Shown here one piece after another: positions 9,598 through 11,756 of a stretch of DNA of 64,000 bases. This stretch comes from Thioalkalivibrio versutus (GTDB lineage Bacteria > Pseudomonadota > Gammaproteobacteria > Ectothiorhodospirales > Ectothiorhodospiraceae). The position numbers and the translations under genes are program-made. The notes under the pieces were generated by a model. The model worked only from the letters and a program-made list of their open reading frames with translations. It made no database searches and was not told where the DNA came from. The DNA lies in assembly GCF_001999325.1 (NCBI RefSeq), contig NZ_MVAR01000015.1, forward strand, positions 77,466-141,465. The letters are read 5' to 3'. Every line of letters begins with the position of its first letter. Position 1 is the stretch's first letter.

Positions 9598-10047
9598 TCA
9601 GGCCGCGTGGGTTTCCTTCGCCTCGCGGGCGGCCCTCGCCTGTTCCGGATCGTAGGCTGCGCCGGACCAGAGCATCTCGTAGGCGATCTCCTCGTTTCCG
9701 TTCTCGCACAGTTCCAGTACCTGCTGGAACAGGGGCTGGAAGGTCTCGCTCTGGTGCGACGCTTCGTGTTCGTCGAAGCTATTCCAGAAGGTGATGATGA
9801 GGGCTTCCTTGTCCTTCATGGGGCTCTCGACCGCCTGGCCGATGGTGGAGCCTTCATTGGAGACGGAGCCGGAGTTCAGCGCGACAAAGCCGCCGACGAA
9901 GCCGGTATCCGAGTGATAGGTCTTTACGTTCTCGCACAGGACGGCCACACGTTCCTGCAGATCGTCGATGGTGTATTCCGGCTTGAGGATCACGCGGTTG
10001 ATGGTGACGACACCGTCGGCCGGGAAGTTGTTGATCAGTTGGCTCAT
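9598..10047 (-). CDS. half-size sulfur oxygenase reductase-like protein
   Basis: A 149-residue cytoplasmic protein. Seen: Cys38 ten residues before a GFVGGF turn; ITFWNSFDEHEASH with His94 and His98; and GNEEIAYE with Glu120. Known: in archaeal SOR (about 310 residues, two ferredoxin-like domains) the catalytic Cys31 precedes a GFVGF turn, His86 and His90 lie in a TFW...HEEMH segment, and Glu114 lies before IYE. The spacing H-x3-H is identical and the Glu is two residues nearer. Cys114 falls near the SOR Cys101/Cys104 pair. Inference: a single-domain SOR relative that may bind mononuclear iron and act on sulfur or persulfide. The start has a clear GGAGAA site (ATG at 10047). It is transcribed away from an ArsR-rhodanese regulator. 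The alternative is a generic antibiotic-monooxygenase-type dimeric barrel protein. The SOR comparison is by eye and from memory. Confidence 0.6.
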   Translation of the reverse strand: MSQLINNFPADGVVTINRVILKPEYTIDDLQERVAVLCENVKTYHSDTGFVGGFVALNSGSVSNEGSTIGQAVESPMKDKEALIITFWNSFDEHEASHQSETFQPLFQQVLELCENGNEEIAYEMLWSGAAYDPEQARAAREAKETHAA

Positions 10048-10110
10048 GACGTTCTCCTGTTGCAGGGGAAGTGTGCCCGAAGGCACGGGTTGCTCGTTAA
10101 GTTAGTAAGC

Positions 10111-10143
10111 AACTTCTAATTGAAGTTCCCGAGTAAACTACTC
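10111..10143. promoter_or_regulatory. two small inverted repeats upstream of the SOR-like gene
   Basis: AACTTC-N5-GAAGTT (10111-10127) and GAGTA-N3-TACTC (10131-10143) lie side by side in an AT-richer stretch 65-95 bases upstream of the SOR-like start. They differ from the operator over the neighbouring regulator, so the SOR-like gene may answer to another factor. The binding protein is unknown. Confidence 0.35.
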
Positions 10144-10250: not shown

Positions 10251-10279
10251 TTGCGTGCGATCCCTGGGTCATCTATCGT
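10251..10279 (+). promoter_or_regulatory. possible sigma-70 promoter of the ArsR-rhodanese gene
   Basis: TTGCGT (10251-10256), a 17-base spacer and TATCGT (10274-10279). Each hexamer matches three or four of six consensus positions. The -10 box touches the palindrome that starts at 10278, so a bound repressor would block initiation. Confidence 0.4.
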
Positions 10280-10305
10280 TCATTCCAATGAATATTGGAA
10301 TGAAC
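10278..10305. promoter_or_regulatory. 28-bp palindromic operator over the regulator start
   Basis: Perfect 12-base arms GTTCATTCCAAT and ATTGGAATGAAC flank a 4-base centre. Such ATTC/GAAT palindromes are typical of ArsR/SmtB operators. It covers two of the possible start codons of the ArsR-rhodanese gene (10288 and 10300). This suggests autorepression and argues that translation may begin at a GTG at 10309, with GGAA eight bases upstream. Confidence 0.7.
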
Positions 10306-10983
10306 ACTGTGTCCGGACGTGAACTCAAGGATCTGCTGTACGAACAGGTGGCCCGCATCGCGCGCGCCGCGGCCAGCCCGAAACGCCTGGAACTGATCGA
10401 GGTGCTGGTGCAGGGCGAAAAGAGCGTCGAGCAGCTGGCTGCGGATGCAGAGCTCAGCGTGAAGCTGACCAGTGCCCACCTGAAGGAGCTGCGCCAGGCG
10501 CGGCTGGTCGAGGCCCGGCGCGAAGGGCGCCATATGTTCTATCGCCTGGTGGATCAGCATGTCGCGGATTTCTGGGTAATGCTGCGCACCCTGGCGGAGG
10601 AGCGCCTGCTCGAATTGCAGGCCGCGACCCGCGAAATGGCCGAGGGCCCTGGCGAGCTGGCCCCGATGGCGGGCCCCGAACTGCTGGAACAGGCGCGTCG
10701 GGGCGATCTCATCGTTCTCGATGTGCGTCCCGGCATGGAATACGCGAACGCCCATCTGCCGTATGCCCGATCCATCCCGATCAGCGAGCTGCGCAATCGG
10801 CTCGGCGAGCTGCCGACCGACCGACCGGTGGTGGCTTATTGCCGCGGTCCCTACTGCCTGATGGCCAGCGAGGCTGTAGAGATCCTGGCCGCGCACGGGT
10901 TCCAGGCGACCCGCTTCGAGGATGGCGTCGCCGAATGGCGCTATCAGGGTCTGCCCATTACCCAGGACTCGGAATCCAACTAA
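10288..10983 (+). CDS. ArsR/SmtB regulator fused to a rhodanese domain
   Basis: A 231-residue transcription factor if read from 10288. Residues 10-105 form an ArsR winged helix (helix-turn-helix around VEQLAADAELSVKLTSAHLK). Residues 130-228 form a rhodanese domain with LDVRPGMEY and the active-site loop CRGPYC (Cys185, Cys190). These are the only cysteines in the protein; the ArsR part has none, unlike BigR/SqrR persulfide sensors. Sulfane sulfur is therefore probably sensed through the rhodanese loop (inference). It heads an operon with a persulfide dioxygenase-like hydrolase and an MFS carrier. The start is uncertain (10288, 10300 or GTG 10309), because the operator overlaps the first two. 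Confidence 0.85.
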   Translation: MNIGMNTVSGRELKDLLYEQVARIARAAASPKRLELIEVLVQGEKSVEQLAADAELSVKLTSAHLKELRQARLVEARREGRHMFYRLVDQHVADFWVMLRTLAEERLLELQAATREMAEGPGELAPMAGPELLEQARRGDLIVLDVRPGMEYANAHLPYARSIPISELRNRLGELPTDRPVVAYCRGPYCLMASEAVEILAAHGFQATRFEDGVAEWRYQGLPITQDSESN

Positions 10984-11021: not shown

Positions 11022-11756
11022 ATGTTTTTCCATCAGCTGCCCACGCGGGAATCGTCGTTGTCCTATCTGTTCGGCTGTGGATCGCTAGGGAAGGCGATTG
11101 CCGTGGATGTGGTGGACGGCGATCAGGACTGGTTTCTGGAGCGGGCCCGCGAGGTGGGTGTCGCGATCACCCACGTGATCGATACGCATATCCATGCCGA
11201 CCACTATTCCGGCGGCCGTGATCTGGCAAGGCGTGCCGGAGCCGAGTACTGCCTGCACGCGTCGGATCGCTCGGTGGTCGAGTTCGACTTCCACGCGCTG
11301 GAGGATGGCGAGCGGATCGCGGCCGGGAATGTCGAGGTCAAGGTGATCCATACTCCGGGCCATACCGAGGACAGCGTGTGCCTGCTGGTTACCGACAAGC
11401 GTCGCGGCGATCAGCCCTGGTTCGTGTTGACCGGCGATACACTTTTTATCGGAAGCATTGGGCGCCCTGACCTGGCGGGGCGCGAGCGGGAGATGGCCGG
11501 GCGCATGTTCGACAGCCTGCAGCAACGCCTGTTGGGTCTGCCGGACGAGCTGGAGATCTACCCGGGCCATTATGCCGGGAGCGTCTGTGGCGCAGGCCTG
11601 TCCGGCAAGCCCTCGTCCACCCTGGGCTTCGAAAAGCGCTTCAACCCGGGGCTTGGGATCCGCGACCGCGAGGCGTTCGTCGATTTCCTGACCCAGGACA
11701 TCCCGCCGCGTCCTTCGGGGATGGATGCCTACGTTGCCGCGAACATCGCGGCCTGA
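11022..11756 (+). CDS. ETHE1/Blh-type metallo-hydrolase, probable persulfide dioxygenase
   Basis: A 244-residue metallo-beta-lactamase-fold protein. The metal-binding motif is THIHADH (His56, His58, Asp60, His61), with His114 in HTPGH, Asp139 in TGDT and His183 in YPGH. ETHE1-like persulfide dioxygenases oxidise glutathione persulfide to sulfite with a mononuclear iron, and the THxHADH form is typical of them. The start has an AGGAGG site seven bases upstream. It sits between the sulfur regulator and the MFS gene. Glyoxalase II activity is a less likely alternative. Confidence 0.85.
   Translation: MFFHQLPTRESSLSYLFGCGSLGKAIAVDVVDGDQDWFLERAREVGVAITHVIDTHIHADHYSGGRDLARRAGAEYCLHASDRSVVEFDFHALEDGERIAAGNVEVKVIHTPGHTEDSVCLLVTDKRRGDQPWFVLTGDTLFIGSIGRPDLAGREREMAGRMFDSLQQRLLGLPDELEIYPGHYAGSVCGAGLSGKPSSTLGFEKRFNPGLGIRDREAFVDFLTQDIPPRPSGMDAYVAANIAA

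Follow-up and report, generated by a model that had tools for sequence, protein, structure and literature searches.

A half-size relative of sulfur oxygenase reductase encoded by sulfur-oxidising bacteria and by phages

Can a protein with a single ferredoxin-like domain do the work of sulfur oxygenase reductase (SOR)? SOR is a hollow sphere of 24 subunits that makes sulfite and sulfide from elemental sulfur in an O2-dependent reaction. The question is raised by a small gene in the stretch of Thioalkalivibrio versutus DNA analysed here (64,000 nucleotides, hereafter the window). An initial annotation, made from sequence alone, described its product as a half-size, SOR-like protein with the equivalents of the catalytic cysteine, the H-x3-H iron ligands and the third, glutamate ligand. 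That observation was confirmed, and the overall reading was supported.

The open reading frame was confirmed as a real gene starting with an ATG at 10047, and the annotated size (149 residues) and residue numbers (C38, H94, H98 and E120) held (Table 1). A purine-rich site similar to its ribosome-binding site lies at the same position in aligned Thioalkalivibrio relatives. Within its own genome, the gene is the sole match to its protein at E up to 1. A search with the single protein (E up to 1e-3) gave matches in 73 of the 369 genomes of the class, the own genome included. The dN/dS values among six orthologues were 0.06-0.20, which shows purifying selection on the family; with the orthologues in 73 genomes, they also show that the SOR-like half-size family is more than chance.

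Table 1. Positions in the window of the half-size gene, its site codons and neighbouring features
Feature	Position	Strand	Basis or remark
CDS, half-size SOR-like protein (P0002), 149 aa	9598..10047	-	translation, orthologues, profile match to SOR
Codon Glu120, on SOR iron ligand Glu114	9688..9690	-	6m35 alignment, MAFFT; 126/126
Codon His98, on SOR iron ligand His90	9754..9756	-	6m35 alignment, hhalign, MAFFT; 126/126
Codon Glu95, on SOR Glu87	9763..9765	-	6m35 alignment, hhalign, MAFFT; 126/126
Codon His94, on SOR iron ligand His86	9766..9768	-	6m35 alignment, hhalign, MAFFT; 126/126
Codon Cys38, on SOR catalytic Cys31	9934..9936	-	hhalign, MAFFT; invariant 126/126
Ribosome-binding site AGGAG of half-size gene	10054..10058	-	read from sequence
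Perfect palindrome AACTTC-N5-GAAGTT, possible operator or promoter element	10111..10127	.	about 60 bp upstream of half-size start codon
12-bp perfect inverted repeat GTTCATTCCAAT-N4-ATTGGAATGAAC	10278..10305	.	over start of divergent regulator
ArsR-family regulator with rhodanese domain	10288..10983	+	PF01022 and PF00581 over cut-off; NF033788 74.6 bits, cut-off 55
Metallo-beta-lactamase-fold protein, GloB / sulfur-dioxygenase-like, candidate persulfide dioxygenase	11022..11756	+	PF00753 over cut-off

Sequence, site residues and predicted fold

The resemblance to SOR is weak for the single sequence and clear with profiles. Taken alone, the window protein scored 13.3 bits (E 0.037) against Pfam SOR PF07682 and 16.8 bits (E 0.0027) against NCBIfam SulOxRed NF047630, missing the cut-offs of 25 and 400 bits. 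The latter cut-off is strict: full-length SORs of the window's own bacterial family (142-291 bits) also fall below it. A phmmer search of PDB with the single protein returned triosephosphate isomerases only, at E 0.65 or worse, and these were taken as chance. Among 24 members of the half-size family, Pfam SOR was matched by 17 (best 2.8e-4) and NCBIfam SulOxRed by 10 (best 1.4e-5), in each case more than any other model of that library. When a profile of the 24 proteins was run against PDB sequences (hmmsearch), the best match was the Sulfurisphaera SOR 6m35 (E 6.5e-6, chain residues 6-121). The remaining SORs stood at E 0.004 and worse, among triosephosphate isomerases at 0.007 and worse, and therefore marginal E-values alone are no proof. 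Alignment of the 24 proteins with nine SORs (eight from genomes of the window's genus, plus the Acidianus SOR) by hhalign gave a probability of 94 and an E-value of 1.1e-7, over the SOR N-terminal half only. Distant homology to that half is shown by these results.

The window protein is not itself a SOR. The second SOR domain is absent: the protein is a single domain of 149 residues, whereas SORs have about 310 with two fused ferredoxin-like domains. It is equivalent to the N-terminal half only. With both family cut-offs and the second domain missed, it is therefore a half-size relative, and full SOR membership was ruled out.

The residues of the SOR site are kept. Against SOR (PF07682, NF047630; 2cb2, 6m35, 6qpa), the catalytic Cys, H-E-x2-H, the Glu ligand, the strand-1 Asn, GF-x-G, T-x-W and E-x2-Y all align. 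An unguided MAFFT alignment pairs Cys38, His94, Glu95, His98 and Glu120 with SOR Cys31, His86, Glu87, His90 and Glu114; across the 24 half-size proteins and nine SOR N-terminal halves, N17, C38, F50, G60, T86, W88, H94, E95, H98, E120 and Y123 are invariant. The HMMER alignment to 6m35 sets the cysteine one residue off, while hhalign and MAFFT pair Cys with Cys. The hhalign alignment ends before Glu120, and the pairing of this residue comes from the 6m35 alignment and MAFFT. C38, H94, E95, H98 and E120 do not vary in any of 126 unique bacterial homologues (106 of subfamily A, the window type, and 20 of subfamily B), each with at least 105 aligned residues and the profile members among them. 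In viral copies, H94, H98 and E120 are kept in 25 of 25 rows and C38 in all 24 rows covering the position. The initial annotation would have been refuted by homologues without these residues, and none was found among the bacterial or viral rows; its claim that the cysteine, H-x3-H and glutamate equivalents are retained held.

In the Sulfurisphaera enzyme (StSOR), the iron ligands are His86, His90 and Glu114, and the cysteines of the pocket lie 9.5-13 A from the iron (PMC7398979). Activity was undetected in C31A, H86A, H90A and E114A, and fell about tenfold in C101A and C104A (PMC7398979). All four residues essential in StSOR are thus kept by the half-size protein; the site match is by sequence only, and its geometry was not measured. 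C114 pairs with SOR Cys101 and is present in 106 of 106 subfamily A and 18 of 20 subfamily B proteins. In the alignment with the nine SOR N-terminal halves, Cys104 has no counterpart, which counts against a SOR-like function.

AlphaFold2 models of the window protein (pLDDT 91.3) and of a phage homologue (pLDDT 91.6) both have a strand-helix-strand-strand-helix-strand core with extra helices. In the window model, C38 lies in the first helix (27-45), H94 and H98 lie in helix 91-98 after the third strand, and E120 begins the last strand (120-124). A structure placing H94, H98 and E120 apart would likewise have refuted the initial annotation. This was checked in part: the helix and strand positions agree with the SOR alignment, and ligand distances were not measured. 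The protein is predicted to be a ferredoxin-like domain of the dimeric alpha+beta-barrel superfamily, whose members build the barrel either as homo- or heterodimers or through duplication with fusion (PMC4835899). The suggestion of a minimal SOR that dimerises fits this fold class; dimerisation, iron and activity are inferences.

Structure comparison did not single out SOR, and the link to SOR rests for this reason on sequence profiles and residues and not on fold score. By VIA-align, one-domain barrel proteins were nearest to the window model (SnoaB, Z 13.5, 97 residues, rmsd 1.4), and the best match of the phage model (Z 13.7) also belongs to the dimeric alpha+beta-barrel superfamily. SORs reached Z 11.8 (6qpa, 128 residues, rmsd 2.9) and 11.7 (2cb2, 123 residues, rmsd 2.2) with the window model. 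They had the largest number of aligned residues among the 50 rows, and the row for 2cb2 covers chain residues 125-301, mostly the SOR C-terminal half. In Foldseek, the window model retrieved SORs at ranks 40, 48 and 50. The 50 rows listed with the phage model include no SOR.

Could the protein instead be another dimeric alpha+beta-barrel monooxygenase or a heme oxygenase (ABM- or IsdG-like), acting on a substrate unrelated to sulfur? SnoaB, ABM (PF03992) and IsdG/IsdI proteins share the single ferredoxin-like domain, SnoaB has the best structural score, and fold alone does not favour SOR. Weak matches to a heme-oxygenase model (5 of 24 family members, best E 0.0044) and to ABM PF03992 (9 of 24, best E 0.019) also support this alternative. 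For the window protein itself, ABM PF03992 was unlisted at E up to 10 (HMMER filters drop most matches above 0.1). Against it, half-size sequence profiles prefer SOR, which was matched most often and with the best scores in both model libraries and was also the best match among PDB sequences. To our knowledge, an invariant H-x3-H with Glu does not occur in the SnoaB, ABM or IsdG/IsdI families. We consider this alternative unlikely.

Distribution and genomic company in bacteria

The 73 positive genomes of the class comprise 50 with subfamily A and 25 with subfamily B, five with both, and three with fragments only. Subfamily A matches the window protein at 68-90% identity over most or all of its length and subfamily B at 34-41%; the nearest named relatives are from Thioalkalivibrio, with identity up to 99%. 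A draw of 299 genomes from the phylum gave eight positives, five of them from another class. In GTDB r220, a relative is encoded in at least 563 of 591 candidate stretches. The 80 best matches were retained; by identity they all belong to subfamily A, and their titles name Thioalkalivibrio, Thiobacillus, Thiohalophilus, Sedimenticola, Thiohalomonas, Thiogranum, Sulfuriferula, Hydrogenophilus, Chromatiales or Chromatiaceae, Hydrogenophilales, Acidiferrobacterales and other gammaproteobacterial or proteobacterial MAGs. One MAG titled 'Rhizobium' (L144) has a Thiobacillus-like stretch, with neighbouring genes that also occur at a Thiobacillus locus (L145), and is probably misbinned. Plasmid searches with the window protein and with the Acidianus SOR gave no match.

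Is the half-size gene a remnant of SOR, or a substitute for it? In a tree, every half-size protein lies on one side of a 100/99 branch that parts them from SOR N-terminal halves, and recent truncation of a neighbouring SOR gene was rejected on this ground. The tree has few columns and long branches, and its exact root is unsure. Full-length SOR-like genes were found in 12 of 47 genomes of the window's bacterial family. The half-size gene is present in ten of the 12 as well, so replacement of SOR by it was also rejected; the other two genomes are both under 80% complete. The full-length genes in the window's genus (L174-L185) are of divergent types, two in several genomes, and all fall below the NCBIfam cut-off. 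SOR was earlier reported in 3 of 75 strains (PMC6382920).

Co-occurrence links the half-size gene to dissimilatory sulfur oxidation. The window's own genome has no dsrA over the cut-off (best E 1.6e-13) and carries an sHdr-type cluster, in which TusA, the CCG-domain HdrB1 and a lipoate-binding (GCV_H) protein were identified by Pfam and the other genes were assigned by eye from the operon order described in PMC6382920. Across the class, dsrA (111 over the cut-off plus seven accepted fragments) or sHdrB1 (22 at E up to 1e-40) occurs in 136 of 369 genomes. Among half-size carriers the count is 66 of 70 (Fisher p 2e-29, uncorrected for relatedness), which argues against the ABM- or IsdG-like alternative. 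The four exceptions (G337, G270, G318, G299) are drafts, 75-91% complete, and each has a same-genus genome with dsrA or sHdrB1. Three fragment-only genomes were excluded from these counts, two with dsrA (G131, G196) and one with neither marker (G067). The association is weaker in the other direction: of the 136 genomes with dsrA or sHdrB1, 70 lack a full half-size match, and the protein is therefore not essential to the reverse-Dsr or sHdr pathways.

Phototrophy was followed with the photosystem marker pufM, present in none of the 70 carriers; among the 68 non-carriers that have dsrA or sHdrB1, two possess it. Within the window's bacterial family (47 genomes), the half-size gene occurs in 31 of 36 genomes without pufM versus 2 of 11 with it, and in all 27 near-complete (90% or more) non-phototrophs. 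Ten of the 11 phototrophs belong to one genus, and the contrast therefore stands for just one or two events in evolution. The two phototrophs with the gene speak against a strict rule of absence. Rarity in same-family phototrophs fits an O2-using enzyme. Two genomes from a single genus (L039, L043) have the B-type gene placed after cbb3-oxidase genes of the FixO and FixG types.

What do the neighbouring genes say? The initial annotation took the position opposite a sulfane-sulfur regulator and a persulfide dioxygenase as support for a sulfur role. In the window, the half-size gene is divergent from an ArsR-rhodanese regulator, which is followed by a metallo-beta-lactamase (MBL)-fold protein and an MFS transporter. 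ArsR and rhodanese domains were found in the regulator. No NCBIfam equivalog scored above cut-off for the MBL-fold neighbour (GSH_gloB and bifunc_ST_SDO fell below their curated cut-offs), and so it remains only a candidate persulfide dioxygenase. The regulator stands divergently next to the half-size gene in 10 of 100 loci, all from Thioalkalivibrio (nine genomes). The neighbourhood argument held in part, within this genus only, and a sulfur link from local neighbours alone was rejected, as they are not conserved outside it. An ATP sulfurylase gene (PF01747) follows the half-size gene in 7 of 100 loci (L055 and L090 being one genome), and an S24-peptidase-like gene (PF00717) lies upstream in many Thiobacillus loci; the protein cluster of this gene spans 19 loci. 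No conserved operon was found in the bacterial loci examined.

Two palindromes lie between the half-size gene and the regulator or over its start. AACTTC-N5-GAAGTT has one exact match in the window and two with one mismatch allowed (0.01 expected), and occurs at the same upstream place in L071-L075 and L094. This palindrome and the ATTCCAAT palindrome may serve as operators of the regulator. The repeat at the regulator's start may be its autoregulatory operator, a function that is inferred.

Phage copies

A profile search of IMG/VR returned 25 viral contigs with a B-type half-size gene; the viral search with the single window protein found no relative. PHROGs was run on the proteins of seven contigs (L187, L192, L194, L195, L196, L200, L206), and each matched at least one phage family, which meets the criterion for a phage auxiliary gene (encoded on contigs with phage genes) for these seven. 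The families include tail protein, tail-tube cap, tail fibre, UvsX, single-strand-binding protein, end protector, replicative helicase, head protease, virion protein and polynucleotide kinase, a gene set that could be read as 'T4-like'. For L187, the matches were limited to polynucleotide kinase and one auxiliary gene, which is NifU-like. Neither the phage homologue L186 nor the window protein had a PHROGs match. For the other 18 contigs, viral status comes from the IMG/VR classification and, for some, from homology to the seven sampled.

The viral copies are also constrained, with dN/dS of 0.05-0.15 in one group and 0.14-0.25 in another; no usable synonymous distance was available for five of six B-type bacterial pairs or for the L186/L187 pair. 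Viral rows do not form one clade in the tree, and well-supported branches need at least two viral/bacterial label changes. These might represent two uptakes, or one uptake and a transfer back. The main viral clade (100/98) groups 18 viral rows with L034, whose 1.1-Mb genome contains dsrA as well; that this genome is a SUP05-like host is a guess.

Sulfur genes have been described in phages before. Like the earlier auxiliary genes dsrA, dsrC/tusE, soxC, soxD and soxYZ (PMC8190135), the half-size gene occurs in tailed phages, partly with IscA/NifU-like genes. The half-size SOR is not among the phage sulfur genes named in that survey, and no word starting with 'oxygenase' occurs in its main text. 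A DsrC-family protein over the Pfam cut-off is encoded in 7 of 25 viral records, in each case on the strand of the half-size gene and roughly 125 to 1000 bp upstream of it. No DsrC was shown in the other 18 records; many of these are fragments. The two phage DsrC sequences inspected have only the C-terminal cysteine, a form known earlier (PMC8190135).

These neighbours bring in a possible alternative, a non-oxygenase persulfide carrier or sensor in which iron and Cys38 would bind sulfane sulfur reversibly and relay or report it. It is supported by the small size of the protein, by the upstream DsrC-family genes, by the rhodanese-containing regulator that adjoins the gene in Thioalkalivibrio, and by the earlier finding that 174 of 191 sulfur-phage contigs encode a carrier (PMC8190135). 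Against it, the three iron ligands and Glu95 are all kept, more than a carrier seems to need, and the scarcity in same-family phototrophs fits an O2-using enzyme. The persulfide-handling relative that the initial annotation had offered as its second option is not excluded.

Iron-sulfur assembly genes could point to another role. An IscA-like gene is found in 12 of 25 viral records, and in 2 of 25 the gene immediately upstream of the half-size one is IscU-like. Eight contigs (L199-L204, L206, L209) share the order IscA-like, small lipoprotein-like, half-size SOR and ring-hydroxylase catalytic-domain gene. The cassette is based on PF01521 (IscA-like) and PF00848 (ring-hydroxylase) in L200, without a Rieske-domain hit; the lipoprotein-like gene was named by eye and has no Pfam match. 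A nuclease gene (PF00565 in L206) comes next in seven of the eight cassettes. In L187 (7423-8375) and L186 (7589-8375), the IscU/NifU-like gene lies immediately upstream and an IscA-like gene nearby. Could the protein be an accessory that supplies iron or Fe-S to sulfur-oxidation enzymes without acting on sulfur itself? The IscA- and IscU-like neighbours speak for this. However, NifU, IscA and like genes are common in sulfur phages generally (PMC8190135), no such neighbour recurs in the bacterial loci examined, and the catalytic cysteine is retained. This reading is very unlikely.

Proposed function

The most likely reading, held with moderate confidence, is that the half-size protein is a homodimeric, non-heme-iron, O2-dependent sulfane-sulfur oxygenase, an activity that is inferred. 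Homology, an invariant site, a predicted one-subunit fold, genomic and phage association and purifying selection are what has been shown. In this view, the protein would be a cytoplasmic, single-domain relative of the SOR N-terminal catalytic half. Each subunit would contribute one ferredoxin-like domain, and two subunits would close one alpha+beta barrel with two iron sites. A mononuclear non-heme iron would be held by His94, His98 and Glu120, and Cys38 would carry sulfane sulfur as a persulfide, supplied by the cell's relay (e.g., TusA, DsrE/DsrC or glutathione persulfide). Sulfane sulfur and O2 would yield sulfite and possibly some sulfide, so that the enzyme would form an O2-dependent side branch to sulfur oxidation by reverse Dsr or sHdr. 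Phages would carry in a copy of their own, some with a DsrC-like or Fe-S assembly gene, and keep host sulfur oxidation going. Cytoplasmic location, iron binding, the dimer, substrate, product, O2 use and phage benefit are all inferred. The proposed chemistry is that of persulfide dioxygenases and ETHE1-like MBL proteins, which use non-heme iron to turn sulfane sulfur and O2 into sulfite; these differ in belonging to another fold family (PF00753).

Several points weigh against this reading. There is no biochemical evidence, and to the missing Cys104 and the undecided fold scores are added the many dsrA/sHdrB1 genomes without the gene, the lack of a conserved bacterial operon, the viral records without DsrC and the two phototroph carriers. 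By anatomy, the protein should work like SOR, with geometry, iron, dimer and activity inferred. A bolder joint reading is that a widespread, overlooked O2-dependent sulfane-sulfur oxygenase acts beside reverse-Dsr/sHdr in chemolithotrophs, that it reflects the unfused, homodimeric form that gave rise to SOR through duplication, fusion and the decay of one site, and that phages took it up, perhaps repeatedly, as a catalytic sulfur gene. Taken as a whole, this falls a little short of being probable.

No half-size SOR or phage SOR was found in the open-access literature searched (subscription papers were outside its scope). A half-size SOR-like protein of sulfur-oxidising bacteria is likely to be undescribed. 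As far as this search shows, the occurrence in phages and the tie to reverse-Dsr/sHdr bacteria are likely new. What would such a protein mean for sulfur oxidisers? A conserved small protein with a SOR site is a directly testable candidate contributor to their metabolism of sulfur. It also provides a one-domain model in which to study the chemistry and evolution of SOR. To the phage sulfur genes, which mostly encode carriers (PMC8190135), it adds a likely catalytic member.
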